Program-made: the position numbers and the translations under genes
NCBI GenBank assembly: GCA_026003335.1
Contig: BPHB01000001.1
Location: 890,591 to 954,590, forward strand
Source of the DNA: Chitinophagales bacterium
GTDB lineage: Bacteria; Bacteroidota; Bacteroidia; Chitinophagales; CAIOSU01
Direction: 5' to 3'
DNA: 64,000 nucleotides
Shown: one piece after another, positions 42,763-57,658 of the stretch
How the letters are laid out: each line of letters opens with the position of its first letter
Numbering within the stretch: the first letter of the stretch is position 1
Notes under the pieces: generated by a model
Seen by the model: only the letters and a program-made list of their open reading frames with translations
What the model was told of the DNA's origin: nothing
Databases searched by the model: none

Positions 42763-42837
42763 AGGGATTCTTTGCATATTCCCGAAGCCCGAACCTTCAA
42801 GGAGTAGCTTCGGGGATAAGTCTGAAATTTGTGGCAT

Positions 42838-43959
42838 ATGCGCATAGCCCTCATAGAACCTTTTTTCAGCGGATCGCATCGGGCATGGGCGGAAGGCTAT
42901 GCGCAACACAGCAAATATGAAGTACGGATATTTTCTTTGAGCGGGCACCACTGGAAATGGCGCATGCACGGAGGAGCAGTCACTCTGGCCCGCATGTATA
43001 TGGAAAGTCATTTCCAGGCCGATGTCATCCTCGCGTCCGATATGCTCAACCTCCCGGTATTTTTAAGCATTACCCGGAAGAAAACAGCTTCCACTCCGGT
43101 GGTTTTATACTTTCACGAAAACCAGCTCACTTATCCCTGGTCGCCTGCTGATCCGGATGCCGTTGCCGGAAGAGACAATCACTACAGCTTTATCAATTAC
43201 GCTTCTGCACTAGTAGCAGACCATGTGTTTTTCAATTCCCAGTATCACCGGGAAGCCCTGTTGAATGCGCTGCCGCAATTTCTGAGAGCCTTTCCGGACT
43301 ATCAGGAAACTACAACGGTGCGCGCCATTGAAAGAAAAAGCTCGGTATTACCTCTGGGATTGGATCTAAAACAGCTTGGCTTGCAGCAGCACGAAGCACC
43401 TTCCAAACCGCTCAGGGCAGTAATTCTGTGGAATCATCGCTGGGAGTATGATAAAAACCCTGAAGACTTTTTCAATGCCCTGTTTGCATTACAGGAGCGT
43501 GGAATTGTATTTCATCTGGTTGTACTGGGTCAAAAATTTGATCGCTATCCGCCAATCTTTGATGAAGCAAGACAACGGCTGAAAGAAAAAATTCTGCACT
43601 TTGGTTTTGTTGAAGAAAAAAAAGAATATGGCAAATGGCTTCAAATGAGCGATATATTGCCGGTAACTTCCCGCCAGGATTTCTTTGGTGCAAGCGTAGT
43701 GGAAGCCATGTATTGCAATGTGGTGCCCTTGCTGCCGAAGCGGTTGGCCTATCCGGAACATATTCCGCCACAGCTCCATTATACTTTCTTTTATACCGAA
43801 GACAACTCCCGTGCGTTCATCAACCGCCTGCAACGAATGATTATGGATGTGAAAGTATTGCGCAAGCAAAACGTGGCTCAGTTTGTTGAACATTATGACT
43901 GGTGCAGCATGGCTCCGCGTTACGATGAAGCCCTCTTCTCTTTGACCAAAGGGAAATAA
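42838..43959 (+). CDS. tRNA-queuosine mannosyltransferase-like glycosyltransferase (DUF3524/QTMAN type)
   Basis: This GT-B enzyme of 373 residues matches the GTDC1/QTMAN group with its characteristic N-terminal domain. Key stretches are MRIALIEPFFSGSHRAWAEG, SGHHWKWRMHGGAVTLAR, DVILASDMLNLPVF, VVLYFHENQLTYPW, the Asp-rich DNHYSFINYASALVAD and the C-terminal donor side with WNHRWEYDKNPEDFF and SRQDFFGASVVEAMY. QTMAN adds mannose to queuosine in tRNA-Asp in animals; bacterial homologues are thought to act similarly. ATG at 42838 (MRIALIE) fits the family N-terminus better than 42829. It is convergent with an unusual tRNA-like RNA gene. Confidence 0.88.
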   Translation: MRIALIEPFFSGSHRAWAEGYAQHSKYEVRIFSLSGHHWKWRMHGGAVTLARMYMESHFQADVILASDMLNLPVFLSITRKKTASTPVVLYFHENQLTYPWSPADPDAVAGRDNHYSFINYASALVADHVFFNSQYHREALLNALPQFLRAFPDYQETTTVRAIERKSSVLPLGLDLKQLGLQQHEAPSKPLRAVILWNHRWEYDKNPEDFFNALFALQERGIVFHLVVLGQKFDRYPPIFDEARQRLKEKILHFGFVEEKKEYGKWLQMSDILPVTSRQDFFGASVVEAMYCNVVPLLPKRLAYPEHIPPQLHYTFFYTEDNSRAFINRLQRMIMDVKVLRKQNVAQFVEHYDWCSMAPRYDEALFSLTKGK

Positions 43960-43986
43960 AAAACCCCTGCAAAAATTCTGCAGGGG
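43958..43986 (-). terminator. Intrinsic terminator of the tRNA-like RNA
   Basis: On the minus strand CCCCTGCA (43986-43979) pairs with TGCAGGGG (43971-43964) around a 7-base loop and is followed by six T (43963-43958). No T tract follows on the plus strand, so it serves the minus-strand RNA. Confidence 0.8.
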
Positions 43987-43990
43987 CTTG

Positions 43991-44130
43991 CTGTTAGGGA
44001 AGGATTCGAACCTTCACGGGGAAGTTAGCCAAAGCAACGGCATCCCTTGCAGAATAGTGTTGCCCGGTTTATCCCTGTATCCCCACCCCCGAGACAGGAG
44101 GGCATGGCTGCCGGTTTCATCACCTAACAG
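43991..44130 (-). ncRNA. Unidentified structured RNA with tRNA-like ends
   Basis: Read on the minus strand, CTGTTAGG at the 5' end pairs perfectly with CCTAACAG at the 3' end. As in class II tRNA, a TG dinucleotide and a D-arm-like hairpin follow (ATG-AAACCGGCAGC-CAT), and a perfect T-arm GAAGG-TTCGAAT-CCTTC abuts the 3' strand of the terminal helix. Between them lie about 86 nt instead of a normal anticodon and variable region. CCCTC-CTGTCTC-GGGGG can form an anticodon-arm-like hairpin; its loop CTGT can also pair with ACAG downstream, making a pseudoknot. GGGG/CCCC and GCAAC/GTTGC close the rest. It has its own promoter and terminator. It is not recognisable tmRNA, SRP, RNase P or 6S RNA. 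Confidence 0.72.
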
Positions 44131-44151
44131 TATCATTGAAAGAACTAATAG

Positions 44152-44183
44152 CAAATCTATTATCCTTCTACGTATGTTGCAAT
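44152..44183 (-). promoter_or_regulatory. Promoter of the tRNA-like RNA
   Basis: On the minus strand TATTG (to 44180) is followed after 20 bp by TAGATTTG (44159-44152), an exact TAnnTTTG. The predicted start is about 15-20 nt before the terminal helix at 44130. Confidence 0.6.
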
Positions 44184-44230
44184 ATTTTTACTTTGAAACG
44201 TAAAAATTTATAGATTTTTCAATAAAGACG

Positions 44231-44268: not shown

Positions 44269-44781
44269 ATGAGCGAAAATTTTAAAATTGATAACACGGA
44301 CCTTCAGATTCTTGCCTTTCTTACCCGGGATGCTATGATGCCTTACACCGAAATAGCCAAAAAAATCTACGTTTCTGTAGGTACCGTGCATGTAAGAATG
44401 AAGCGCATGCAGGATATGGGCATCGTCCGGGGCTCCCAGATTCTGATTGATTACGCCAGACTTGGCTATGATGTAAAGGCTTTTCTGGGCATCTTCCTGC
44501 AAAAAAATTCACTGTATGACAAGGTAGCCGCTCAGCTAAAAAAAATTCCCGAAATCGTGGAATTAAACTATACCACCGGTAATTACAGCATGTTTTTAAA
44601 AATTATCTGTCGTGACACACAGCACCTCCGCCAGGTGCTGCATGATAAGATTCAGAAAATTGATGGGATTGAACGCACCGAAACCTTTATCTCCCTGGAA
44701 GAGAGCATAAATCGGCCCGTACAACTTTATGAAGAAAAGGACCATGCACAGCGTAATAAAAGCTCCACCCGTATGAAATAA
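44269..44781 (+). CDS. Lrp/AsnC family transcription regulator
   Basis: The 170-residue protein has an N-terminal winged helix (NTDLQILAFLTRDAMMPYTE and then IAKKIYVSVGTVHVRMKRMQ) and a C-terminal ligand-binding RAM domain (VKAFLGIFLQKNSLYDKVAA, IVELNYTTGNYSMFLKIICR). The family forms octamers that bind amino acids and regulate amino acid or other metabolic genes. The tail EEKDHAQRNKSSTRMK is longer than in most members. It has its own promoter, divergent from the tRNA-like RNA, so it could regulate that promoter region; target genes are unknown. Confidence 0.9.
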   Translation: MSENFKIDNTDLQILAFLTRDAMMPYTEIAKKIYVSVGTVHVRMKRMQDMGIVRGSQILIDYARLGYDVKAFLGIFLQKNSLYDKVAAQLKKIPEIVELNYTTGNYSMFLKIICRDTQHLRQVLHDKIQKIDGIERTETFISLEESINRPVQLYEEKDHAQRNKSSTRMK

Positions 44782-46531: not shown

Positions 46532-49500
46532 ATGAATCGAATCATTACCCTCAACATTTATTCCTGCCCTGTCCTGTTTCCATGCTTTTTAGTTTTTCTC
46601 CTCACCTTCCTGCTGTCGGTGGGCGTATCCGCTCAGACAGTAAGTTTTACATCCAGTAACCTCATAGGCGAAAACCTTTCCAACCCTACTTCCTTGCAGT
46701 TTGGTCCTGACGGGCGACTGTATGTAGCGCAGCAAAACGGGGCGATACTCGTCTACACTATTGTAAAGAACGCCCCCAACAACTATCAGGTAGTAGCCAC
46801 GGAAGTTATCAATTTGATACAGCAAATACCCAATCATAATGATGACGGTAGTCTTGCTCCAACAGTAAACACCCGTCAGGTTACCGGTCTGCTGGTTACC
46901 GGCACACCTACCAACCCGGTGATTTACGTTACTTCCAGTGACCCCCGTATCGGAGGCGGCTTCAACGCCCAGAATTTGAATCTGGATACCAACTCAGGTG
47001 TCATTTCGCGCCTGACCTGGAATGGCACTGAATGGGTTAAGCTTGATCTTGTTCGCGGGTTGCCACGCTCCGAGGAAAATCACTCCATTAATGGCCTTGC
47101 TCTGGATGCCGCTACAAACACTCTTTATGTAGCCCAAGGCTGCAATACCAATATGGGTGCCCCCTCCAACAACTTTGTGATGCTGCCCGAATACGCGTAC
47201 TCCACAGCTATACTGAAGGTAGACCTCAATGCCATTGGAGAAACCACCTATGACCTGCCCACTCTGGATGATGAAGACCGGACCAACATTAACTCCATTA
47301 CCGGTTTTGAAGACCCCTATGATCCCTTCGGAGGCAATAATGGTAAGAATCAGGCTATCCTTGTACCCAACGGCCCTGTTCAGATATACTCACCGGGCTG
47401 GAGAAACAACTATGATATCGTCATCACCAAGGCGGGTAAAATGTACAGCTTTGACAATGGCCCCAATGCCGGCTGGGGAGGTCCTCCCATCAACTGCACT
47501 AACCAGCAAAGCGAACCGGGTGTCACCTACTGTGATGTTTTGATTCACGTGACCGGCCCCGGCCACTATGCCGGCAGCCCCAACCCCACCCGTGCGAACC
47601 GAAATAATACATTCAACATTACCAATCCGCAATCGCCTATACCTCCGGGTATGGAAAACCCCATAGAATGCAATTACCTGCCGCCGGGAAGCAAACCCGG
47701 CCAGATATCTGATGTGTGCTCCTCCACCAACGGTCTGTGCGAATACACAGCCTCTAACTTCAGCAACGCCATGAAAGGCAACCTCATCGCTGCGTCCTTT
47801 AACGGTAAGCTCTACCGCTTTCAGCTCAACGCTACAGGTGACGCACTCGTGCCCGGAGGAAAAACCGTACTTGCCTCCAACTTCGGTTCCACCCCCCTGG
47901 ATGTCATTGCACAGGGCGATAACGACATCTTCCCCGGCACTATATGGGTAGTTACCTATGGCTCAGGCAACATCACCATCTTTGAGCCCACTGACGCTCC
48001 CTCCTGTGCTGGCGACCCCAACAGCATGCTGGTTGACTCAGACGGTGACGGCTACAAAAATGGCGATGAAACCCTCAACAGCACCGACCCCTGCTCCCCG
48101 GCCAGCATACCCCCTGACTTTGACCATGACTTCCTCACCGACCTGCTGGACCCCGATGATGACAATGACGGCATCAACGACATCAACGACAAATTCGCCT
48201 TAGACTTTTATAACGGCATGAACACACCTATCCCCATCAGTTTGGATTTTGACAATTCAGACGATGGCGGAATAGAAAACTGGGGGTTCACGGGTCTGAT
48301 GATCAATGGAGTTTCCAACTACAAAAACCTCTATAATCCTGTAGGTATGACAGTTGGCGGGGCCGCCCTGAAGTTTACCATTGATGCCGTTTCTGAAGGA
48401 GAAGCCTTTGGCGCTACCAACACTCAGGAAAATGCCTTTCAGTTTGGAGTGAAAATCACTAATACACAGTGGAACTATATTGTACACACCCGCATCATGG
48501 GCCCCTATCAGGGTTTTACTCCCGTAAATTATCAATCCATGGGTATGTTTATCGGCACAGGCGATCAGGATAACTATCTACGCATAATTTGTCATGCCAA
48601 CAACGGTGCCGGTGGTATTCAGGTGCTGAAAGAAGTAGGTGGAGTGCCGACTGGCACCGTTTATGCTGCGCCCATCTTAAACACCAGCTATGTGGACTTT
48701 TTTTTCAACATCAACCCCACCACATTGATGGTGCAGCCCAGCTATTCTATTAACGGAGGCACCCCCATCAATGTGGGGCCGCCTGTTTCCATTCCTGCCA
48801 ACTGGATATCACCCAATGCCCTCGCAGTGGGCATTATATCTTCATCCAATGGTCCGGGCGCTCCTTTCCCTGCCACGTGGGATTTTATCCGGGTTTACTT
48901 TGACCAGTCTACTGTAACCGGCAACTGGTATACCATCAACACCACTACAACCCCTACGGCCCGCCACGAGTGTGCTTATGTACAAGCGGGAGACAAATTT
49001 TATTTACTGGGAGGCAGAGGCATCAAACCCGTACAGTGCTACCATCCCACTGACAGTGTCTGGGCAAGCCGCTCAGCACCGCCAGTTCAGATTCATCATT
49101 TTCAGGCGGTTGAATTCAACGGTCTTATTTATGCCATTTGCGCATTCACGGGAAATTTTCCCAACGAAACGCCCCTGCCCAATATTTACATTTATGACCC
49201 CGTGGCCGATAGCTGGTCTGTAGGACCCGAAATTCCGGCCAACCGCAGACGTGGCTCAGCCGGATGCGTAGTGTATAACAACAAAATCTATGTAGTAGGT
49301 GGTATCCAAAATGGTCATATTGACGGATGGGTACCCTGGCTGGATGTATTTGATCCGATAACGAATACCTGGACTCCTCTGCAGAATGCTCCACGTGAGC
49401 GTGACCATTTCAGCGTAGCTCTTGTCAATGGAAAGATTTACTGCATCGGTGGTCGCAAAACAGGCTATGGCGGCAGTACCTTTAATGCAACAGTGCCCGA

Positions 49501-52500
49501 AGTGGACATTTATGACATAGTCACCGGAACATGGTCTACGTTACCCTCGCCTTCCGGCAATCTACCCACGCCCAGGGCTGCTGCATCTGTGGCCGTATTA
49601 GGTAACGAAATTCTCGTCATTGGCGGGGAAAGCGGAGCCTCCTCCAGTGCCCACAGTGAAACTGAAGCCCTTAACATCATCAGCCATACCTGGCGCACGC
49701 TGGCTCCCCTCAATCAAGGTCGGCATGGTACCCAGGCCATCGTCTCAAACGGAGGCGTGTTTGTCGCTGCAGGAAGTAAAATAAGAGGCAATGATGAAAT
49801 CAACTCCCAGGAAGTATTTTACTTCTTCAACCCTACGCCACCCACTACCACGACCATAACAAAAGGCAACCTGCAACCCGGCACTACGACAAAAAATTTC
49901 AGTCTCGTTTTACTTGCTGACACTGTTTCTTCCACTATCAATCTGGTCAGTACCGGAGGCAATCAGGTATTGATGATTAACGAAATATCTCTGAGCGACT
50001 CGGTGAACTACAGAATAACCAACATGCCCAACCTTCCACTGGCTGTTACTCCCAACCAGCAAGTACCCCTCAACATTCAGTTTCACCCTCTCTCACTGGG
50101 AGTAAAAAATGCTTTTATCCATATAGAACATACAGGAGCCAACGGCCCGATTGATATCTTCTTAACCGGTGAATGCGTGGAAACTATCCCCTGCGAGGAA
50201 TATCCCACCGAAGAAAACGGATTGCTGATAGTGGAATGTGAAATAGCTACCAACAGGCCGGCAAACTGGAAACTCGTCACAGACGTAAGCGGCTATACTG
50301 GTAGCGGTTTCCTGCGCTATGAAGGTCCGGAATATCTGTATACCCCCGGCAATCAGCTTATCGTTTACAAAGTAAATATCAATCATCCGGGTCGCTACCG
50401 CTTTCAAAACCGGTCAAGAAACAATAGTTCTGTGAGCAACATTCACAATGATTACTGGCTGAAATTTCCTCATGGCGGAGCAAGAAAATTCCAGTTGGGA
50501 GTGGACAAAGGTCCTCTGATCGGTTGGTTTAAAGTGTATCAGAATCATCCCAACACATGGAGCTATCAAACCTCTACGGTAGAAGAGAACCCGCATGATA
50601 TCTATGTAGACTTCAATGCACCGGGCACCTATGAAATTCATGTATCAGCACGAGCAAATATGTTTATGCTTGACCGCTTCATTCTGTATCAAAGCCCCAT
50701 TACAGAAGCTCAGGCCACTACCGCTCTGCCGCCTGCTTCTCCCATAAGCTGCATTGAACTACCCTGGTATGCTGATAATGACGCTGACCTGTTTGGTAAC
50801 CTAGGCGATGTGGTTTACTCGGTAGTGCAGCCCGCAGGCTATGTACTGAACAATAAAGACTGTGATGATAACAATCCGGCTGTTAAACCCTCAGCTGTGG
50901 AGGTGCAAGACGGAATAGATAATAACTGCAACGGAGTTATTGACGAAGGCTTCGGGGCGCCAAAGGCCCTACTGGTAGTTGGCAACATTCCCTTAAGCTC
51001 ATCCGATCAGGCTATTAAAGATCGCCTCATTCAGCTCGGATTTGATGTTACTGTGATGACCGGAGCTCAGGCAACCTCACTGATTGCATCAGCTATGGAT
51101 CTGATTTTTGTGAGCTCCACGATTAATTCATCCGATGTGGGCACTAAATTCACCAACCTGGAGGTACCGCTTATCAACTGTGAATCCTCACTCATGGATG
51201 ATCTGCTGATGACAGCAGCCAGCACATCTAATTTCGGAGCGGATAATAACCAGACTCAAATTAAACTCACAGGTGCTCCGCACCCACTGGCAGGGTCTTT
51301 AACGAATGGCGTTATTCCTGTTTACAATAGTCTGGACAAAATAACCTGGGGCAAACCTGAGCCGGCTGCTACCATTATAGCCCGGTCGCTGACGGACACC
51401 ACCAAAATAGCCATTTTCGGCTATGAGAATAATACGCAAATGGTCAGCATAAAAGCTCCTGCACGCAGGGTGGGCTTTTTCCTAAACGACCTCAGCGCCA
51501 GCAAGCTGACTAACGCTGGACTTACTCTGCTGGATGCAGCTATACGCTGGGCTGCCAATTATAATTACTCCGGAGCTACCATAGGGGATGCCCTTTTTGT
51601 GGCAGGGGATACCAGCCTCACCACCGCTGACCTTGCTGTAAAAACGCGGCTTCAGAACCTTGGCTTCAATGTCATCACCAAAAGCGCCAAAAACGCACAA
51701 CCCGCTGATGCTAACGGCAAAGAACTGATTGTAATTTCTTCCACCAGCTTGTCAACCGATATCAATACGAAATTCACCAACGTCAATGTGCCGCTGCTGA
51801 ACTGGGAGCCAGCGCTATCTGACGATTTAAAAATGACCTCCAGCAGTTCCAATACCAATACCGGTGTAAACAAGATTCAGATTCTCAATTCCGCACACCC
51901 TCTGGCTGGTGGATTGCCTGCCGGGCAGGCCATTGTATACTCAGCTAATGACAATATTATTTATTCTTCCACTACCGGCAGCAGTGCAATTAAAATTGCC
52001 GCCACTGCCGGCAACGCCAACAACATCTCCATATATGGATACGAAGAAGGCGCTCCTATGATAGGCATTAATGCCCCGGCACGAAGGGTTGGGTTTTTCC
52101 TGCATGACCAGGGAGCCGGATTACTTACTTCCAATGGCTGGAGGCTGTTTGATGCGGCAGTCCGTTGGCTAACAGAAGGCCTGAATGTTCCGCCAGCCTT
52201 TAACATTTCCGGAGATACTGTTGCTACCGAAGACTTTGTCGGAACAAAAACCATTTACGTCAACCCGCTGCCTCCGGTTGTCGGAGAAGAGAACCAGGTG
52301 CCGGTTTACAATCTTTCTCCCACCACTTCCAGTTTTGTCAATGTATCATTTAGCCCCGCAACCGGTAATGTGACCTTCACAGCAAAACCCAATGCTTCCG
52401 GGTCACAGCAGTTTACTATCACCGCTGATGACGGACAATCCAAAAACAATTTGTTCAGTAAGACCTTTACCTTTACCGTTACCCCGGTAAATGACCCGCC

Positions 52501-55500
52501 CACCTTTCATGTCAGCGGAAATATTTCGGTAAACAAAAATTTCTCCGGTACTCAAACAGTCACCATTATCCCCGATCCGGTGCCGGCAAATGAAGCCGGG
52601 CAAACGGTAACCTATTCTCTCTCCCCTACGTCTGTACCCTTTGCAAATGTCTCCATCAACAGTGCTACCGGCACTGTAAGCATTACAGCCAAACCTGATT
52701 CTTTCGGATTTCAGGTATTTACCATTACTGCCAATGACGGACAAACTCTAAACAACACAGCCACTCAACAATTCTATCTTGCCGTAAAAAATCCGGATAG
52801 CCGGGCACTGTGCTTCAACTGTGGTGGCTCACAATATGTATCGGTCATGGGCGATACCTTTAAATCCGACTATTACTTTTCCACGGGAACCCTTACCTAC
52901 ACAAATGAAAACATTCCTGACTTTGCTAACACCTTTGACGATTTCATCTTTAAATCTGAACGAAACGCCACAACTTTCAGCTACAACATCCCGGTAGCTA
53001 ACGGAGTCTATAAAGTAAGGCTCTACTTTGCCGAAACGTATTTCGGGGCAACGGGTGGTAATCCCACCGGAGGTGTGGGCAGCCGCGTTTTCCATGTAAC
53101 CCTTGAAGGCACTCAGGTGCTAAGCTACTTTGACATATTCGCCCAGGCCGGAGGTGCTGAAAAAGCAATCAAGCGTGAATTCAGCAATGTGGTGGTGAAT
53201 GATGGCATGCTGGATATACAGTTTAATGCCGTAATCAACAAGGCTAAAATCTCCGGCATCTGCATTGTGCCGGATGAAAACGCTAATCGTCCGCCAACTT
53301 TTACCATCAGCGGAAACGTGATAGAGGTTAAAAATTTCACCGGAACCCGCACAGTCACTGTCATCCCCGATCCGGTTCCGCCCGGGGAAGCAAATCAAAC
53401 GGTTACCTACACTCTCACGCCACCTGCTGTAAGTTTTGCAAGTATCTCCTTCAACAGCAACACCGGTCAGGTAGATATTCTTTCAGTTCCTGATGCTACC
53501 GGTATCCAGGAGTTCACCATTACGGCCAATGATGGGCAGGCTGTAAACAACACTGCATCCAAAAAATTTATTCTTGCAGTAAATGAAACCTATAGTCGTG
53601 CCTTTTGCTGGAACTGCGGAGGTCCTCAGTATCTTTCTTTTTCCGGTGATACGTTCCGTTCGGATTTCTACTTCTCCAGCGGCACATTTACGTATTCCAA
53701 TAATGCCATTCCGGATATCCAGAACACCTATGATGACCTGGTTTACCGCTCCGAACGCAACGGAAACTCTTTCAGTTACAACATCCCACTTCCTGAAGGA
53801 TATTATAAAGTCAAACTTCTCTTTTCTGAAATATACTTTGGCGCCACTGGTGGAAATCAGGCTGCGGGACCTGGCAGCCGTGTATTTGACGTAACTCTTG
53901 AAGGTAATCTGGTGCTGGACAACTTTGATATCTATACCCAGGCACTTGGAGCGGAACGTGCGCTGATCCGGGAATTTGATAGTGTGCTGGTCAATGACGG
54001 CATTCTGAATATCGGCTTTGAAGGCGTTGTTAACAAAGCCAAAGTATCAGGTATTTGCGTAATTCCCTACACCGACAACACACCACCTGCTTTCAATCTC
54101 AGTACTGTTGTACTCAATCTGCTGGAAGATTTCCCTACCACGGAAACAATTAGCGTGATTCCGGATCCCGTGCCTCCTTCCGATTCGGCTGATGTGGTTA
54201 CCTACACGCTGTCGCCATCCACATCCTCTCTGGCCAACGTATCCATTAACCCAACTACAGGTACCGTTACCATAACCAAAATCCCGAACAAAAATGGTAG
54301 TGCCGTGTTCACGGTTACTGCCAATGACGGACGCATGTTCGGTACCTTCTCGCGCAGCTTTACACTGAATATTGAGCCGGTGAATGATCCTCCCGTGTTC
54401 TCCCTGACCAGCAATGTAGTTTTAGCTAAAAACTTTTCTCCTCCGGTAAGCATACAGGTAGTGCCCGCTCCGGTGCCTGCCGATGAAGTCGGTCAGGTAG
54501 TAAAATATTCCCTGTCGCCCCCATCAGCAAACTTTGCAACCGTTACTATTGACAGCCTTACCGGTATCATCACCTTCTCTTCCATTAATAATGCTTACGG
54601 TACTCAGGTATTTACCGTGTTTGCGGATGATCAGCAGCCTGTCAATAATGTTGCCAGCCAAACCTTTACCCTTACAGTATCCCCCTACACAGCCAATCAG
54701 CCGTTGCCGGTTTTTGTAAATTGCGGTGGCCCTCAGTACCTGTCACTGGATGGAGACACCTTTAAGGCAGACAACTACTACTCCACACCCAGCTTTGCTT
54801 ATACAAATAATAGTATCCCGGATATTCAAAACACCGGGGATGATCCGCTTTTCCGAACAGAACGCTATGCCGGAACTCTGAGCTACAACATCCCGGTTAG
54901 AAATGGCATCTACAACATTAAAATCTATTTTGCAGAAATATACTACGGTGCTACGGGAGGTGCTCCGCTTAACGGAGGTCCCGGAAAACGGATTTTCAAT
55001 ATTTACGTGGAAGACTCCCTTGTAAAAGCTGGTTACGACATCTGGGTAGCCGCTGGAGGAGCTGAAAAGGCTGTTATTGAGACGTTCAACAACGTTTCCA
55101 TTAATGACAGCTTCGTGAATATCCGCCTGGCAGCTGTGGTAGGCAACGCTAAACTATCCGCCATAGCAATTATCCCCGCCCCATTTGACTGTAATGGAGA
55201 ACAAAACGGAAGCGCCTACCTTAATGACTGCGGTATCTGTGTAGGCGGCTCTACCGGCCTCAATGCAAATGAAGGAAAAGACTGCAATGGCGTTTGCGGA
55301 GGAACAGCCTTCATCAATGACTGCGGTATCTGCGTAGGCGGCTCTACAGGCCTCAATGCAAATGAAGGAAAAGACTGCAATGGCGTTTGCGGAGGAACAG
55401 CCTTCATCAATGACTGCGGTATCTGTGTGGGCGGCACTACAGGCCTCAATACCAATGAAGGAAAAGACTGCAATGGCGTTTGCGGAGGAACAGCCTCGTT

Positions 55501-57658
55501 GGATGATTGCGGCATTTGCTCCGGAGGCACTACAGGACTTGTTCCCAATGCAAACAAAGATTCCTGCGGAGTGTGCTTTGGTGATGGCTCTTCCTGTGCC
55601 CCTCCACCTTGTGTGCCCAACGAAGTAGTTTCTTTCACCCTCATGCATGCGGGTACAGCAGGTGAAATAGCCCCCCTCACCAGCGGCATGACCATAAATA
55701 AGGCAATCATTGGTGCCTTCAGCATCCGTGCTAATACCTGCAATGGTCAGAATGTGGGCAGCGTAAAATTTATCCTCAATGGCTCCACCATCAGAACTGA
55801 AAGTGCAGCACCTTATGCGATCAACGGAGATAGTCCAGCTGGAAATTACATAGCCTGGAACCCGGCTCCGGGTAACTATACTCTTACCGCCATACCCTAT
55901 ACAGGTAGCGGTGGCACAGGCACTGCCGGCATCAGCGAAACCATAACCTTTACAATCATTGATCAGCCCAATACTACTGACTGTGCCGGAGTACTCAACG
56001 GAACGGCCTTTATGAACGCCTGCGGCATCTGTGTGGGCGGTACTACAGGCTTGCCTGCCAACCAAGGTATGGATTGCAACGGAACCTGCAACGGGTCGGC
56101 ATATTTGAACGAATGCGGGGTTTGCGTAGGAGGCACCACCGGTCTGAATGCCAATGCCGGTAAAGATTGCGCTGGTGTATGCAACGGCTCGGCAAGCATA
56201 GACGACTGCGGTATTTGTGCTGGCGGCACCACCGGCATCACGCCCAATGCCGATAAGGACAGCTGCGGAGTATGCTTCGGTGATGGCTCTTCCTGCTCTG
56301 GTTCAGCCTGTCAACCGCTGCAAATTGTTGCTCTCACCCTGATTGATGCAAATACAGATCTGGATATTGTTACCATGACCAATGGCATGACAATTAATCT
56401 TGCCGTTACGCCTTCCATAAGCGTACGTGCCAATACATGCAATAACCAGAATGTGGGAAGCGTAAAATTTTTCTTAAACAATACATTGATTAAAACAGAA
56501 AACATTCCTCCCTATGCTGTAAATGGTGACAGCCCGTACGGAAATTACCTGGCATGGAATGTACCGTTAGGTAACCACACCCTTACAGCTACACCCTATT
56601 CAGGCCCCAGCGGTTCAGGTACTGTAGGCATAAGCAAAACCATATCATTCACGGTGATAAACCAACCCAACGGAACTGATTGTGCAGGAGTTACCAATGG
56701 AACGGCCTACGTAAATGAGTGCGGCATTTGTGTAGGTGGCACTACCGGCCTGCCAGCCGATCAGGGTAAAGACTGTGCGGGTGTTTGCGGTGGCAGTGCT
56801 TCTGTGAACGATTGCGGCATCTGCGTAGGAGGCACCACCGGCCTGAATGCCAATGCCGGTAAAGATTGCGCTGGTGTATGCAACGGCTCGGCAAGCATAG
56901 ACGACTGCGGCATTTGTGCTGGCGGCACCACCGGCATCACGCCCGATGCCGATAAGGACAGCTGCGGAGTATGCTTCGGTGATGGCTCTTCCTGCATAGG
57001 GGGTCCATGCGCTCCCCTGTCTGTTACTTCAGTGACTATCGTAGGCATTTGTACCAGTGGTGATATTGCTCAGCTGACCGAAGGTATGGTGATTAATCTG
57101 GCAATACATCCTGAATTCAGCTTACGTGCCAATGTATGCTCTGAAGGCGCTGTGGGTAGTGTGAAATTCATTGTAAACGGCACCACTGTAAGAGTGGAAA
57201 ATACAGCACCCTTTGCCATTAATGGCGATAGCCCCATAGGATGCTTTAAGAAATGGTATGTAGGCACCATTCCCTACACGCTCACGGTCATCCCATACAG
57301 CGGAACAGGCGCCACAGGTACCGAAGGTCCGGCTTATACGGTTCACTTTACCATCGTAAACCAGGGTGCCAAGCGTGAACAGTCCGACTATCCACCTGCT
57401 GACGATCAAGACATTGCTATTTATCCTAACCCCAATAGCGGCAGCTTCACGCTGGAATTCATGGTGAATGAACCAAATGATGTGGGTATCCAGATATTCA
57501 ATCATCTGGGACAGATTATCTATCACGAATCAAAAGCTGATTTTACCGGTGAGCTAAAAGAAAACATCAGTCTGGAAAACCATGCACCAGGAATATACTA
57601 CCTGAAGCTGGTATCCGGTGAAAATAGTATCATCAGAAAAGTGGTGTACAAAAATTAA
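46532..57658 (+). CDS. Giant modular T9SS-secreted protein (3708 residues)
   Basis: Order of parts, by rough residue: signal peptide 1-35; a beta-propeller of the glucose/sorbosone dehydrogenase type 36-485; thrombospondin-3-like calcium loops 500-560 (DSDGDGYKNGDE); a LamG-like region 570-790; Kelch repeats 797-1100; a HYDIN/ASPM-like sandwich 1105-1215; a CBM6-like region 1217-1387; a MopE-type metal motif 1408-1473 (DNNCNGVIDEGF); two about 205-residue repeats 1475-1880 of a flavodoxin-like fold; five cadherin-like domains and three malectin-like domains between 1887 and 2884 (each starting NCGG); three Cys-rich cassettes with Ig-like domains 2886-3610; T9SS type A domain from about 3630 (IAIYPNPNSGSF to RKVVYKN). 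A large surface protein likely binding carbohydrates; enzymatic activity of the propeller is uncertain. Confidence 0.92.
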   Translation: MNRIITLNIYSCPVLFPCFLVFLLTFLLSVGVSAQTVSFTSSNLIGENLSNPTSLQFGPDGRLYVAQQNGAILVYTIVKNAPNNYQVVATEVINLIQQIPNHNDDGSLAPTVNTRQVTGLLVTGTPTNPVIYVTSSDPRIGGGFNAQNLNLDTNSGVISRLTWNGTEWVKLDLVRGLPRSEENHSINGLALDAATNTLYVAQGCNTNMGAPSNNFVMLPEYAYSTAILKVDLNAIGETTYDLPTLDDEDRTNINSITGFEDPYDPFGGNNGKNQAILVPNGPVQIYSPGWRNNYDIVITKAGKMYSFDNGPNAGWGGPPINCTNQQSEPGVTYCDVLIHVTGPGHYAGSPNPTRANRNNTFNITNPQSPIPPGMENPIECNYLPPGSKPGQISDVCSSTNGLCEYTASNFSNAMKGNLIAASFNGKLYRFQLNATGDALVPGGKTVLASNFGSTPLDVIAQGDNDIFPGTIWVVTYGSGNITIFEPTDAPSCAGDPNSMLVDSDGDGYKNGDETLNSTDPCSPASIPPDFDHDFLTDLLDPDDDNDGINDINDKFALDFYNGMNTPIPISLDFDNSDDGGIENWGFTGLMINGVSNYKNLYNPVGMTVGGAALKFTIDAVSEGEAFGATNTQENAFQFGVKITNTQWNYIVHTRIMGPYQGFTPVNYQSMGMFIGTGDQDNYLRIICHANNGAGGIQVLKEVGGVPTGTVYAAPILNTSYVDFFFNINPTTLMVQPSYSINGGTPINVGPPVSIPANWISPNALAVGIISSSNGPGAPFPATWDFIRVYFDQSTVTGNWYTINTTTTPTARHECAYVQAGDKFYLLGGRGIKPVQCYHPTDSVWASRSAPPVQIHHFQAVEFNGLIYAICAFTGNFPNETPLPNIYIYDPVADSWSVGPEIPANRRRGSAGCVVYNNKIYVVGGIQNGHIDGWVPWLDVFDPITNTWTPLQNAPRERDHFSVALVNGKIYCIGGRKTGYGGSTFNATVPEVDIYDIVTGTWSTLPSPSGNLPTPRAAASVAVLGNEILVIGGESGASSSAHSETEALNIISHTWRTLAPLNQGRHGTQAIVSNGGVFVAAGSKIRGNDEINSQEVFYFFNPTPPTTTTITKGNLQPGTTTKNFSLVLLADTVSSTINLVSTGGNQVLMINEISLSDSVNYRITNMPNLPLAVTPNQQVPLNIQFHPLSLGVKNAFIHIEHTGANGPIDIFLTGECVETIPCEEYPTEENGLLIVECEIATNRPANWKLVTDVSGYTGSGFLRYEGPEYLYTPGNQLIVYKVNINHPGRYRFQNRSRNNSSVSNIHNDYWLKFPHGGARKFQLGVDKGPLIGWFKVYQNHPNTWSYQTSTVEENPHDIYVDFNAPGTYEIHVSARANMFMLDRFILYQSPITEAQATTALPPASPISCIELPWYADNDADLFGNLGDVVYSVVQPAGYVLNNKDCDDNNPAVKPSAVEVQDGIDNNCNGVIDEGFGAPKALLVVGNIPLSSSDQAIKDRLIQLGFDVTVMTGAQATSLIASAMDLIFVSSTINSSDVGTKFTNLEVPLINCESSLMDDLLMTAASTSNFGADNNQTQIKLTGAPHPLAGSLTNGVIPVYNSLDKITWGKPEPAATIIARSLTDTTKIAIFGYENNTQMVSIKAPARRVGFFLNDLSASKLTNAGLTLLDAAIRWAANYNYSGATIGDALFVAGDTSLTTADLAVKTRLQNLGFNVITKSAKNAQPADANGKELIVISSTSLSTDINTKFTNVNVPLLNWEPALSDDLKMTSSSSNTNTGVNKIQILNSAHPLAGGLPAGQAIVYSANDNIIYSSTTGSSAIKIAATAGNANNISIYGYEEGAPMIGINAPARRVGFFLHDQGAGLLTSNGWRLFDAAVRWLTEGLNVPPAFNISGDTVATEDFVGTKTIYVNPLPPVVGEENQVPVYNLSPTTSSFVNVSFSPATGNVTFTAKPNASGSQQFTITADDGQSKNNLFSKTFTFTVTPVNDPPTFHVSGNISVNKNFSGTQTVTIIPDPVPANEAGQTVTYSLSPTSVPFANVSINSATGTVSITAKPDSFGFQVFTITANDGQTLNNTATQQFYLAVKNPDSRALCFNCGGSQYVSVMGDTFKSDYYFSTGTLTYTNENIPDFANTFDDFIFKSERNATTFSYNIPVANGVYKVRLYFAETYFGATGGNPTGGVGSRVFHVTLEGTQVLSYFDIFAQAGGAEKAIKREFSNVVVNDGMLDIQFNAVINKAKISGICIVPDENANRPPTFTISGNVIEVKNFTGTRTVTVIPDPVPPGEANQTVTYTLTPPAVSFASISFNSNTGQVDILSVPDATGIQEFTITANDGQAVNNTASKKFILAVNETYSRAFCWNCGGPQYLSFSGDTFRSDFYFSSGTFTYSNNAIPDIQNTYDDLVYRSERNGNSFSYNIPLPEGYYKVKLLFSEIYFGATGGNQAAGPGSRVFDVTLEGNLVLDNFDIYTQALGAERALIREFDSVLVNDGILNIGFEGVVNKAKVSGICVIPYTDNTPPAFNLSTVVLNLLEDFPTTETISVIPDPVPPSDSADVVTYTLSPSTSSLANVSINPTTGTVTITKIPNKNGSAVFTVTANDGRMFGTFSRSFTLNIEPVNDPPVFSLTSNVVLAKNFSPPVSIQVVPAPVPADEVGQVVKYSLSPPSANFATVTIDSLTGIITFSSINNAYGTQVFTVFADDQQPVNNVASQTFTLTVSPYTANQPLPVFVNCGGPQYLSLDGDTFKADNYYSTPSFAYTNNSIPDIQNTGDDPLFRTERYAGTLSYNIPVRNGIYNIKIYFAEIYYGATGGAPLNGGPGKRIFNIYVEDSLVKAGYDIWVAAGGAEKAVIETFNNVSINDSFVNIRLAAVVGNAKLSAIAIIPAPFDCNGEQNGSAYLNDCGICVGGSTGLNANEGKDCNGVCGGTAFINDCGICVGGSTGLNANEGKDCNGVCGGTAFINDCGICVGGTTGLNTNEGKDCNGVCGGTASLDDCGICSGGTTGLVPNANKDSCGVCFGDGSSCAPPPCVPNEVVSFTLMHAGTAGEIAPLTSGMTINKAIIGAFSIRANTCNGQNVGSVKFILNGSTIRTESAAPYAINGDSPAGNYIAWNPAPGNYTLTAIPYTGSGGTGTAGISETITFTIIDQPNTTDCAGVLNGTAFMNACGICVGGTTGLPANQGMDCNGTCNGSAYLNECGVCVGGTTGLNANAGKDCAGVCNGSASIDDCGICAGGTTGITPNADKDSCGVCFGDGSSCSGSACQPLQIVALTLIDANTDLDIVTMTNGMTINLAVTPSISVRANTCNNQNVGSVKFFLNNTLIKTENIPPYAVNGDSPYGNYLAWNVPLGNHTLTATPYSGPSGSGTVGISKTISFTVINQPNGTDCAGVTNGTAYVNECGICVGGTTGLPADQGKDCAGVCGGSASVNDCGICVGGTTGLNANAGKDCAGVCNGSASIDDCGICAGGTTGITPDADKDSCGVCFGDGSSCIGGPCAPLSVTSVTIVGICTSGDIAQLTEGMVINLAIHPEFSLRANVCSEGAVGSVKFIVNGTTVRVENTAPFAINGDSPIGCFKKWYVGTIPYTLTVIPYSGTGATGTEGPAYTVHFTIVNQGAKREQSDYPPADDQDIAIYPNPNSGSFTLEFMVNEPNDVGIQIFNHLGQIIYHESKADFTGELKENISLENHAPGIYYLKLVSGENSIIRKVVYKN
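50956..52170 (+). repeat. Two tandem about 205-residue domains in the giant protein
   Basis: The segment starting GAPKALLVVGNIPLSSSDQ and the segment starting GDALFVAGDTSLTTADLAV are paralogous. Both share the pattern LGF(D/N)V, STxLSxDxxTKFTNxxVPL, SAHPLAG and APARRVGFFL. They were probably duplicated within the gene. The fold resembles glutamine-amidotransferase/ThuA-like domains; no catalytic triad was identified. Confidence 0.8.
52803..55182 (+). repeat. Three malectin-like domains separated by cadherin-like domains
   Basis: Malectin-like units lie at about 52803-53271, 53599-54069 and 54709-55182. Each begins with a variant of FNCGG and contains SxRNxxxFSYNIP, YFAExYFGATGG and a late IxxxAxSGIxIxP. 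Cadherin-like units with the IIPDPVP and FTITANDGQ motifs precede each. Malectin domains bind di- and oligosaccharides in other proteins. Confidence 0.85.
55188..55620 (+). repeat. 93-bp tandem repeat, Cys-rich (31-residue unit), first cassette
   Basis: Four units of 31 residues (DCNGVCGGTAFINDCGICVG-type) are arrayed in tandem and then capped by DSCGVCFGDGSSC. The DNA period is exactly 93 bp: gaaggaa recurs at 55271, 55364 and 55457. Neighbouring units are nearly identical at the DNA level, so duplication is recent. The array is coding and in frame; it is not a CRISPR. Confidence 0.9.
56126..56296 (+). repeat. 171-bp dispersed repeat, copy 1 (second Cys-rich cassette)
   Basis: This stretch is almost identical to 56825-56995, exactly 699 bp downstream, with only three differences (C/T twice and A/G once). 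It encodes the last Cys-rich units of the second cassette and its cap. Confidence 0.9.
56825..56995 (+). repeat. 171-bp dispersed repeat, copy 2 (third Cys-rich cassette)
   Basis: Partner of 56126-56296. The 699-bp spacing is 233 codons, so the unit of duplication or gene conversion is probably cassette plus Ig-like domain. Confidence 0.9.

Follow-up and report, generated by a model that had tools for sequence, protein, structure and literature searches.

The window analysed here, a stretch of 64,000 nucleotides from a Chitinophagales bacterium (assembly GCA_026003335.1, contig BPHB01000001.1), carries on its minus strand a gene for a tRNA-like RNA with a long variable arm. The gene lies between a promoter-like site and an intrinsic terminator, and a gene for an AsnC-type transcriptional regulator is divergent from it. 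The features of the locus are listed below.

44152..44184 (-): promoter-like site, with a -33 element TATTG (44184-44180), 20 nt, and a -7 element TAGATTTG (44159-44152)
43991..44130 (-): tRNA-like RNA, position -1 to G73, 140 nt; 125.4 bits and E 2.7e-35 in the covariance model, backed by structure counts
44130-44123 / 43998-43991 (-): 8-bp end helix, CTGTTAGG with CCTAACAG, read in the sequence
44123..44129 (-): acceptor 5' strand TGTTAGG (U1, G2), pairing with 43998-43992
44104..44120 (-): D-arm, ATG, loop AAACCGGCAGC, CAT; the stem covaries, and GG is present in the loop of 81/81 copies
44086..44102 (-): anticodon arm CCCTC-CTGTCTC-GGGGG, anticodon GTC at 44095-44093; the stem covaries
44018..44084 (-): long variable arm, 67 nt; both proximal stems covary and the internal loop is conserved
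44084-44081 / 44021-44018 (-): variable arm, first stem GGGG/CCCC, then the bulge ATAC
44076-44074 / 44024-44022 (-): variable arm, second stem AGG/CTT
44073-44068 / 44028-44025 (-): variable arm, internal loop GATAAA/CTAA
44067-44029 (-): variable arm, distal hairpin
43999..44015 (-): T-arm GAAGG-TTCGAAT-CCTTC, perfect in the window; 100% paired cells in 81 copies
43990..43998 (-): acceptor 3' strand CCTAACA, G73 and C74; the further CA is not encoded
43958..43986 (-): intrinsic terminator, hairpin CCCCTGCA/TGCAGGGG (43986-43964), then T6
44269..44781 (+): AsnC-type transcriptional regulator (PF01037), divergent, 138 nt from the RNA

The window RNA fits a tRNA position by position, with a 7-bp acceptor, U8 and G9, a 3-bp D-stem, GG in the D-loop, base 26, a 5-bp anticodon stem, the 7-nt loop CTGTCTC, the 67-nt variable arm, two spacer bases, the T-arm and G73. 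This fit supports the tRNA-like ends and the class II (Leu-like) outline described in an initial annotation of the window, and the promoter-like elements, 8-bp end helix, D-arm, perfect T-arm and terminator named there were all located in the minus-strand sequence. Two of its details did not hold. About 86 nt had been said to stand in place of the anticodon and variable region; an intact anticodon arm is present at 44102-44086, and the insert is the variable region only. A pseudoknot of CTGT with ACAG had also been suggested, and these two strands are the end of the acceptor helix.

The proposal that this RNA gene stands alone, with promoter-like and terminator-like signals of its own, was backed by its homologues. 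When 163 distinct copies were scanned, the promoter box TAnnTTTG (Bacteroidota type) was found upstream of 105 (shuffle mean 13, opposite strand 23), and the -33 element accompanied it in 90 (shuffle 1.9, opposite strand 4). Downstream, 69 of these copies have a terminator-like hairpin (shuffles 1-7). C74 follows G73 in all 186 copies with flank, and C75 and A76 are as a rule not encoded. The tRNA-Asn genes of the same genomes likewise resemble the RNA genes at their 3' end, with C74 and without C75 A76.

Fold, conservation and distribution of the RNA family

A blastn search with the locus matched 27 of 60 relatives (the window's own genome included), several of which have at least two tandem copies. 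A covariance model built from 25 copies confirmed 23 of these 27 genomes; the matches in the other four (G017, G028, G038, G050) were short T-arm or D-arm matches. Members of the family scored at least 78 bits in the covariance model, whereas ordinary tRNAs of ~85 nt scored ~50-60 bits. Matches at E 1e-20 or better were counted by hand from the table in 69 of the 149 genomes of the window's order. Among 395 Bacteroidota genomes, 41 matched at E 1e-16 or better, 40 of them with a full-length RNA and one (G215) solely with a variant of 77 nt. Scanning named genomes with a pattern gave at least 120 stretches. The 80 loci listed from it comprise 45 from Cytophagales, 17 from Saprospirales, 11 from Chitinophagales, 1 from Flavobacteriales and 6 without an order, with Chitinophaga, Dyadobacter, Cyclobacterium, Belliella, Emticicia, Aquirufa, Portibacter and Flammeovirga among the named hosts. 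This pattern fixes the anticodon loop, so its loci were kept out of the loop statistics. A mobile or phage origin was considered and rejected: no match was found in viral contigs searched with one pattern, or in phages or plasmids searched by blastn with the window copy.

Tandem arrangement was observed at 28 of 130 loci, which hold 2-4 copies each. Arrays of 3-4 copies occur at L067, L068, L168, L041, L089 and L090, and at another locus a degenerate copy (L167:5160-5293) is flanked by two good ones.

The fold was supported by covariation. In a plain MAFFT alignment of 25 copies, 98.9% of cells were paired and two-sided changes were present in 18 of 29 pairs, compared to 9.5 in shuffles. In 81 distinct copies (alignment A2), 98.2% of the paired cells were standard pairs and 20 of 29 pairs had two-sided changes, compared to 14.5 in shuffles; none of 500 shuffles reached any of five measures, and sliding the partner strand lowered pairing to 48-57%. 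Because A2 holds model-found copies fitted to the covariance model, its counts lean towards structure. The tRNA core was present in this set, with U8, A14, GG in the D-loop, TTCRA in the T-loop and the cloverleaf helices. With RNAalifold, the D and anticodon stems were replaced by a competing hairpin, GGCA/TGCC. It was rejected, as it is intact in 58 of the 81 copies, whereas the two tRNA stems are intact in 78 and also covary. Across the family, the variable arm consists of a 4-bp stem, a 4-nt bulge, a strongly covarying 3-bp stem and a conserved internal loop GAYAAA/CTAA (with variants). Its distal hairpin varies in size, which gives RNA lengths of 109-196 nt. The stability of the single-sequence fold was not unusual (z -0.03), which counts against the RNA being more than a chance feature. 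A small open reading frame from the D-arm ATG was dropped by eye; its end point differs between the copies read.

Standard tools did not report the RNA. ARAGORN and Rfam at gathering scores, applied to the whole window, gave three ordinary tRNAs elsewhere and no match at the RNA locus. At homologous loci, ARAGORN detected the RNA in 0 of 28 and Rfam at gathering scores gave zero matches in 17. When Rfam was searched at the RNA locus with E up to 10, the best sub-threshold match was chance-like (E 0.12-0.22). Neither program reported a tmRNA at the locus, where a GUC anticodon arm is present, and the tRNA-Sec family RF01852 gave no gathering-level match there. tRNA-Sec and allo-tRNA have a long acceptor (acceptor/T-stem 8/5, 8/4 or 9/3) and a matching anticodon. 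Such an identity was rejected for this RNA, which has a 7-bp acceptor, a 5-bp T-stem, the anticodon GUC and a variable base at position -1 (C in 41, T in 31 and A in 9 of 81 copies). No description of the RNA was found in the literature searched, from which subscription journals were mostly absent. The outcomes that the initial annotation had named as speaking against it (a known Rfam family, no homologues in relatives, no compensatory changes) were all tested, and none occurred. The RNA gene it observed is thus confirmed, and its interpretation, which assigned the RNA no function, is borne out in part. The RNA family is real, widespread, conserved and previously unrecognised, and is missed by two standard annotation tools.

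Anticodon loop and identity bases

The anticodon loop has the consensus [C/U]N-GUC-YC. Among the 81 distinct copies, bases 34-36 are GUC in 79, C38 and G73 are present in all, and the U1:A72 and G2:C71 pairs are invariant. Position 37 is a pyrimidine in 80 copies, and U33 is absent in 18. The ribosome needs decoding-loop bases such as U33 and purine 37, a combination that the family does not keep.

A review of tRNA identity (PMC9976931) gives G73, G34, U35, C36 and C38 as the main determinants for aspartyl-tRNA synthetase (AspRS), with G10 as a further one, and describes G1-C72 and G2-C71 as strictly conserved among bacterial tRNA-Asp. All five main bases are found in the RNA, with exceptions at base 34 only. 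The U1-A72 pair is the one read by the bacterial amidotransferase GatCAB, as stated in PMC4206432. Judged from its bases, the RNA keeps those mainly read by AspRS, gives up those used for decoding and swaps G1:C72 for the GatCAB-read U1:A72. It looks like a transamidation carrier, and lacks defining features both of a tRNA-Asp and of a decoding tRNA.

A functional though unusual tRNA-Asp (GUC) isoacceptor that serves in translation would have the same anticodon and a full tRNA core. It is the least probable of the explanations weighed here. The pyrimidine at position 37, the missing U33 and the spread in length argue against it, and U1:A72 would let GatCAB produce an Asn-tRNA that reads Asp codons.

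Base 34 departs from G in four genomes: the loop triplet is UUC in G452, CUC in G303 and G518, and AUC in the short variant of G215. G303 and G518 belong to one genus, lack glutaminyl-tRNA synthetase (GlnRS) and have a tRNA-Asn with G1:C72; G303 also has the asparagine synthetase AsnA. Their relative G215 has the 77-nt form (L324:539-615, minus strand) without the long arm, with the loop CTATCTC and the same acceptor ends. Among bases 34-36 and 38, the exceptions alter base 34 alone. They may reflect drift where other routes to asparagine exist, or a changed synthetase preference. In G452 the change is not simple decay, because neither AsnA nor a match to the asparagine synthetase model TIGR01536 was found in this genome.

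Partner genes and proposed function

The regulator encoded next to the window RNA aligns with E. coli AsnC along 150 residues, gap-free and at 44% identity. Its best solved relative is AsnC itself (2cg4, E. coli, E 1.3e-34; next 9.4e-22), and its score lies under the NCBI AsnC equivalog cut-off (167.9 vs 227). A divergent AsnC relative is present within 1.5 kb at 38 of 50 model-found loci, with none shown at the other 12. Of the named loci, 68 had sufficient flank, 42 with such a relative and 26 with none; the remaining 12 of 80 had too little upstream DNA. E. coli asnC is itself divergent to asnA, and AsnC activates asnA unless asparagine is present, according to PMC4482635. Five genomes without the RNA (G008, G037, G049, G150, G263) keep a close AsnC relative; no RNA lies beside it, and each has AsnA or canonical AsnB. 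G197, likewise a genome without the RNA, has a divergent pair of an AsnC-like and an AsnB-type gene, separated by 118 bp (L335:151-2290).

GatB, asparaginyl-tRNA synthetase (AsnRS), AsnB-type proteins, AsnA and GlnRS were searched for in 69 genomes. The 37 RNA-positive genomes are the 41 phylum-matching ones minus G100, G124, G129 and the short-variant G215. The 32 RNA-negative genomes are 20 listed non-matching ones (334 others were unlisted) and 12 of the window's order. AsnRS was found in all 69 genomes. GatB was present in 37/37 RNA-positive and in 9/32 RNA-negative genomes, and these nine coincide exactly with the RNA-negative genomes that lack GlnRS, which should depend on GatCAB for Gln-tRNA. 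Hence, GatB tracks the presence of the RNA or the lack of GlnRS without exception in all 69 genomes. Both AsnRS and GlnRS were found in 54 genomes, and of these GatB was present in 31/31 with the RNA and in 0/23 without it.

Asparagine synthetases were counted in the same genomes. TIGR01536 matched 66 of the 69 genomes (63 over the cut-off) as it takes in other amidotransferases, and a canonical AsnB protein query was therefore used instead. Canonical AsnB was found in 0/37 RNA-positive and 16/32 RNA-negative genomes, AsnA in 3/37 and 4/32, and either of the two in 3/37 and 19/32. Neither AsnA nor a TIGR01536 match over the cut-off was found in five RNA-positive genomes (G094, G106, G326, G385, G452) and in the RNA-negative G039. 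In G039 AsnRS is present, and no RNA, GatB, AsnA or TIGR01536 match was found; this organism is predicted to be an asparagine auxotroph.

From these observations, the RNA is probably a tRNA-shaped carrier that takes no part in decoding and is dedicated to asparagine synthesis by AspRS and GatCAB. It would be matured by RNase P and the CCA-adding enzyme. AspRS would load it with aspartate via G34, U35, C36, C38 and G73, and GatCAB, via U1:A72, would turn the Asp-RNA into Asn-RNA. The changes at positions 33 and 37, together with the large arm, would exclude it from the ribosome, so that no asparagine would enter at Asp codons. Released asparagine would feed AsnRS, and the AsnC-type regulator would set the RNA supply by the asparagine level, as E. 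coli AsnC does for asnA. The tandem copies would fit a need for high amounts.

Could the carrier be tRNA-Asn instead? Bacteria with AsnRS, GlnRS and GatCAB but no asparagine synthetase, Bacteroidetes included, may make asparagine on tRNA-Asn, as proposed in PMC4206432. We read the tRNA-Asn of 66 of the 69 genomes (G000 and G197 were unmatched by the pattern, and that of G193 is cut at a contig end). It has G1:C72 in 7 of the 35 RNA-positive genomes read, whereas all 31 RNA-negative genomes have U1:A72. In these seven genomes, tRNA-Asn therefore lacks the pair read by GatCAB. Four of them (G023, G036, G048, G070) have GlnRS and no AsnA or canonical AsnB, though each encodes a TIGR01536 paralogue. 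The AspRS search covered 30 of the 69 genomes. At an anticodon-loop site that we take to mark specificity, the enzymes of 19 RNA-positive genomes have Leu (6), Phe (7) or Lys (6), and never His. The dual-specificity P. aeruginosa enzyme has His at this site, and those of E. coli and T. thermophilus have Leu. Both results speak for a carrier other than tRNA-Asn. The older tRNA-Asn idea may still hold, because the AspRS site is alike in RNA-positive and RNA-negative genomes and U1:A72 is kept in the tRNA-Asn of 28 of the 35 RNA-positive genomes.

These last two findings weigh against the proposal of a dedicated carrier, and so do the following. The release of asparagine is the weakest link of the proposed route. 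Charging by AspRS may be weak or slow, because U1:A72 is invariant (81/81) and G10 is rare (6/81), unlike in tRNA-Asp. The base-34 departures also count against it, and that of G452 comes with a lack of AsnA and of a TIGR01536 match. Three RNA-positive genomes have AsnA. Moreover, AsnB-superfamily paralogues over the TIGR01536 cut-off are present in 32 of the 37 RNA-positive genomes and could make asparagine; four of them score 233-280 bits, compared to 499 for the AsnB equivalog. GatB was the sole GatCAB subunit searched, the survey genomes are not random, and genomes were called RNA-negative from a filtered first look in which few candidates were scored. Finally, an AspRS tree of 30 genomes gave 2-3 independent contrasts on well-supported branches and 3-5 on all branches, and no test based on these phylogenetically independent contrasts was significant. 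For the RNA and GatB, no independent pair goes the wrong way; for the RNA and synthetase loss, a few random pairings do. The association of the RNA with GatB is thus exact in 69 genomes but not yet phylogenetically significant.

The small number of contrasts would suit an RNA unrelated to GatCAB and asparagine, whose co-occurrence reflects shared ancestry and whose GUC loop is read by something else. We consider this very unlikely, since the loop bases, U1:A72, the AsnC neighbour, GatB and the synthetases are independent lines that agree. A regulatory RNA has somewhat more in its favour. Such a tRNA mimic would bind AspRS and/or GatCAB and report or tune the Asp/Asn supply as a decoy or sensor, under control of the AsnC-type regulator and with no bulk asparagine made. 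The divergent AsnC-type gene, the identity bases for both enzymes and the other AsnB-type proteins in many genomes are consistent with it. A decoy leaves unexplained why GatB accompanies GlnRS only where the RNA is present, and why canonical synthetases are scarce, and we regard it as unlikely.

The non-decoding loop with synthetase identity bases and the tandem copies would also suit an aspartyl- or asparaginyl-RNA that serves as donor in a non-ribosomal reaction, such as cell wall, lipid or peptide modification. This appears improbable, as no shared transferase was seen among the neighbours looked at, where only the AsnC-type gene clearly recurs, and the link to the missing canonical synthetases would be left unexplained.

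A tRNA-queuosine alpha-mannosyltransferase (QTMAN_N, E 1e-58) is encoded in the window at 42829-43959 (+), just past the terminator and convergent with the RNA. By tblastn, QTMAN was found at 1 of 130 RNA loci, the window's own (most loci carry only 1.5 kb per side). The queuosine-inserting enzyme needs U33. A queuosine link, suggested by this neighbour and the GUC anticodon, was dropped in view of the copies without U33 and the single QTMAN locus. At L080, L088, L094, L120 and L163 (Chitinophagaceae-type), the RNA adjoins a short gene whose product begins MGQKKL.RF...FPNVL and, judged by eye, resembles a tRNA m7G46 methyltransferase. Farther away, the window contains an open reading frame of 3708 aa (46532-57658, plus strand) with repeated Cys-rich units of the type NDCGICVGGTTGLNANEGKDC.

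Meaning and comparison with known systems

Whatever its function, the RNA represents a widespread conserved family missed by two standard annotation tools, and it offers a natural split of synthetase recognition from decoding, with 34-36, 38 and 73 kept and 33 and 37 altered. If it is the proposed carrier, it would explain how asparagine is supplied in bacteria that have AsnRS but no canonical synthetase, and whose AspRS does not look non-discriminating. It would also account for the retention of GatCAB alongside GlnRS and AsnRS, and it would mean that an amino acid is made on a dedicated RNA that has left translation. A bolder version, which we put forward only tentatively, is that this would be the first known RNA whose sole role is the production of a free amino acid. 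With AspRS and GatCAB, it might then act as the chief asparagine synthase in many members of Chitinophagales, Saprospirales and Cytophagales, its arm organising an AspRS-GatCAB complex or controlling asparagine release.

The closest known counterpart is tRNA-dependent asparagine synthesis on tRNA-Asn in Deinococcus, Bdellovibrio and Staphylococcus aureus. According to PMC4206432 and PMC6523644, AspRS loads aspartate and GatCAB amidates it via U1:A72, the same chemistry as proposed here, and the route is used where asparagine synthetases are absent. In these bacteria a non-discriminating AspRS works with the normal tRNA-Asn of translation as carrier, whereas the putative carrier here is a separate RNA with an anticodon for aspartate, changes at the decoding positions and a very large variable arm.

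Compared to tRNA-Asp (GUC), the RNA shares G34, U35, C36, C38, G73 and G2:C71, but has U1:A72 for G1:C72, rarely G10, a pyrimidine at position 37 and a class II variable arm. With tRNA-Leu it shares T44, a variable arm that follows at once, a spacer of two bases ahead of the T-stem, and a 3-bp D-stem. It differs from tRNA-Leu in having G73 instead of A73, the GUC anticodon and an arm of ~67 nt in the window. The E. coli asnC-asnA pair has the same divergent layout (gap of 151 bp, compared to 138 nt in the window), with the RNA gene in the place of asnA here. Other tRNA-shaped RNAs are also not meant for decoding. The staphylococcal cell-wall tRNA-Gly is used outside translation, and a Bacillus cereus pseudo-tRNA reportedly belongs to the same class. 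Both differ from the RNA described here in amino acid identity and structure, and neither is linked to making the amino acid itself.

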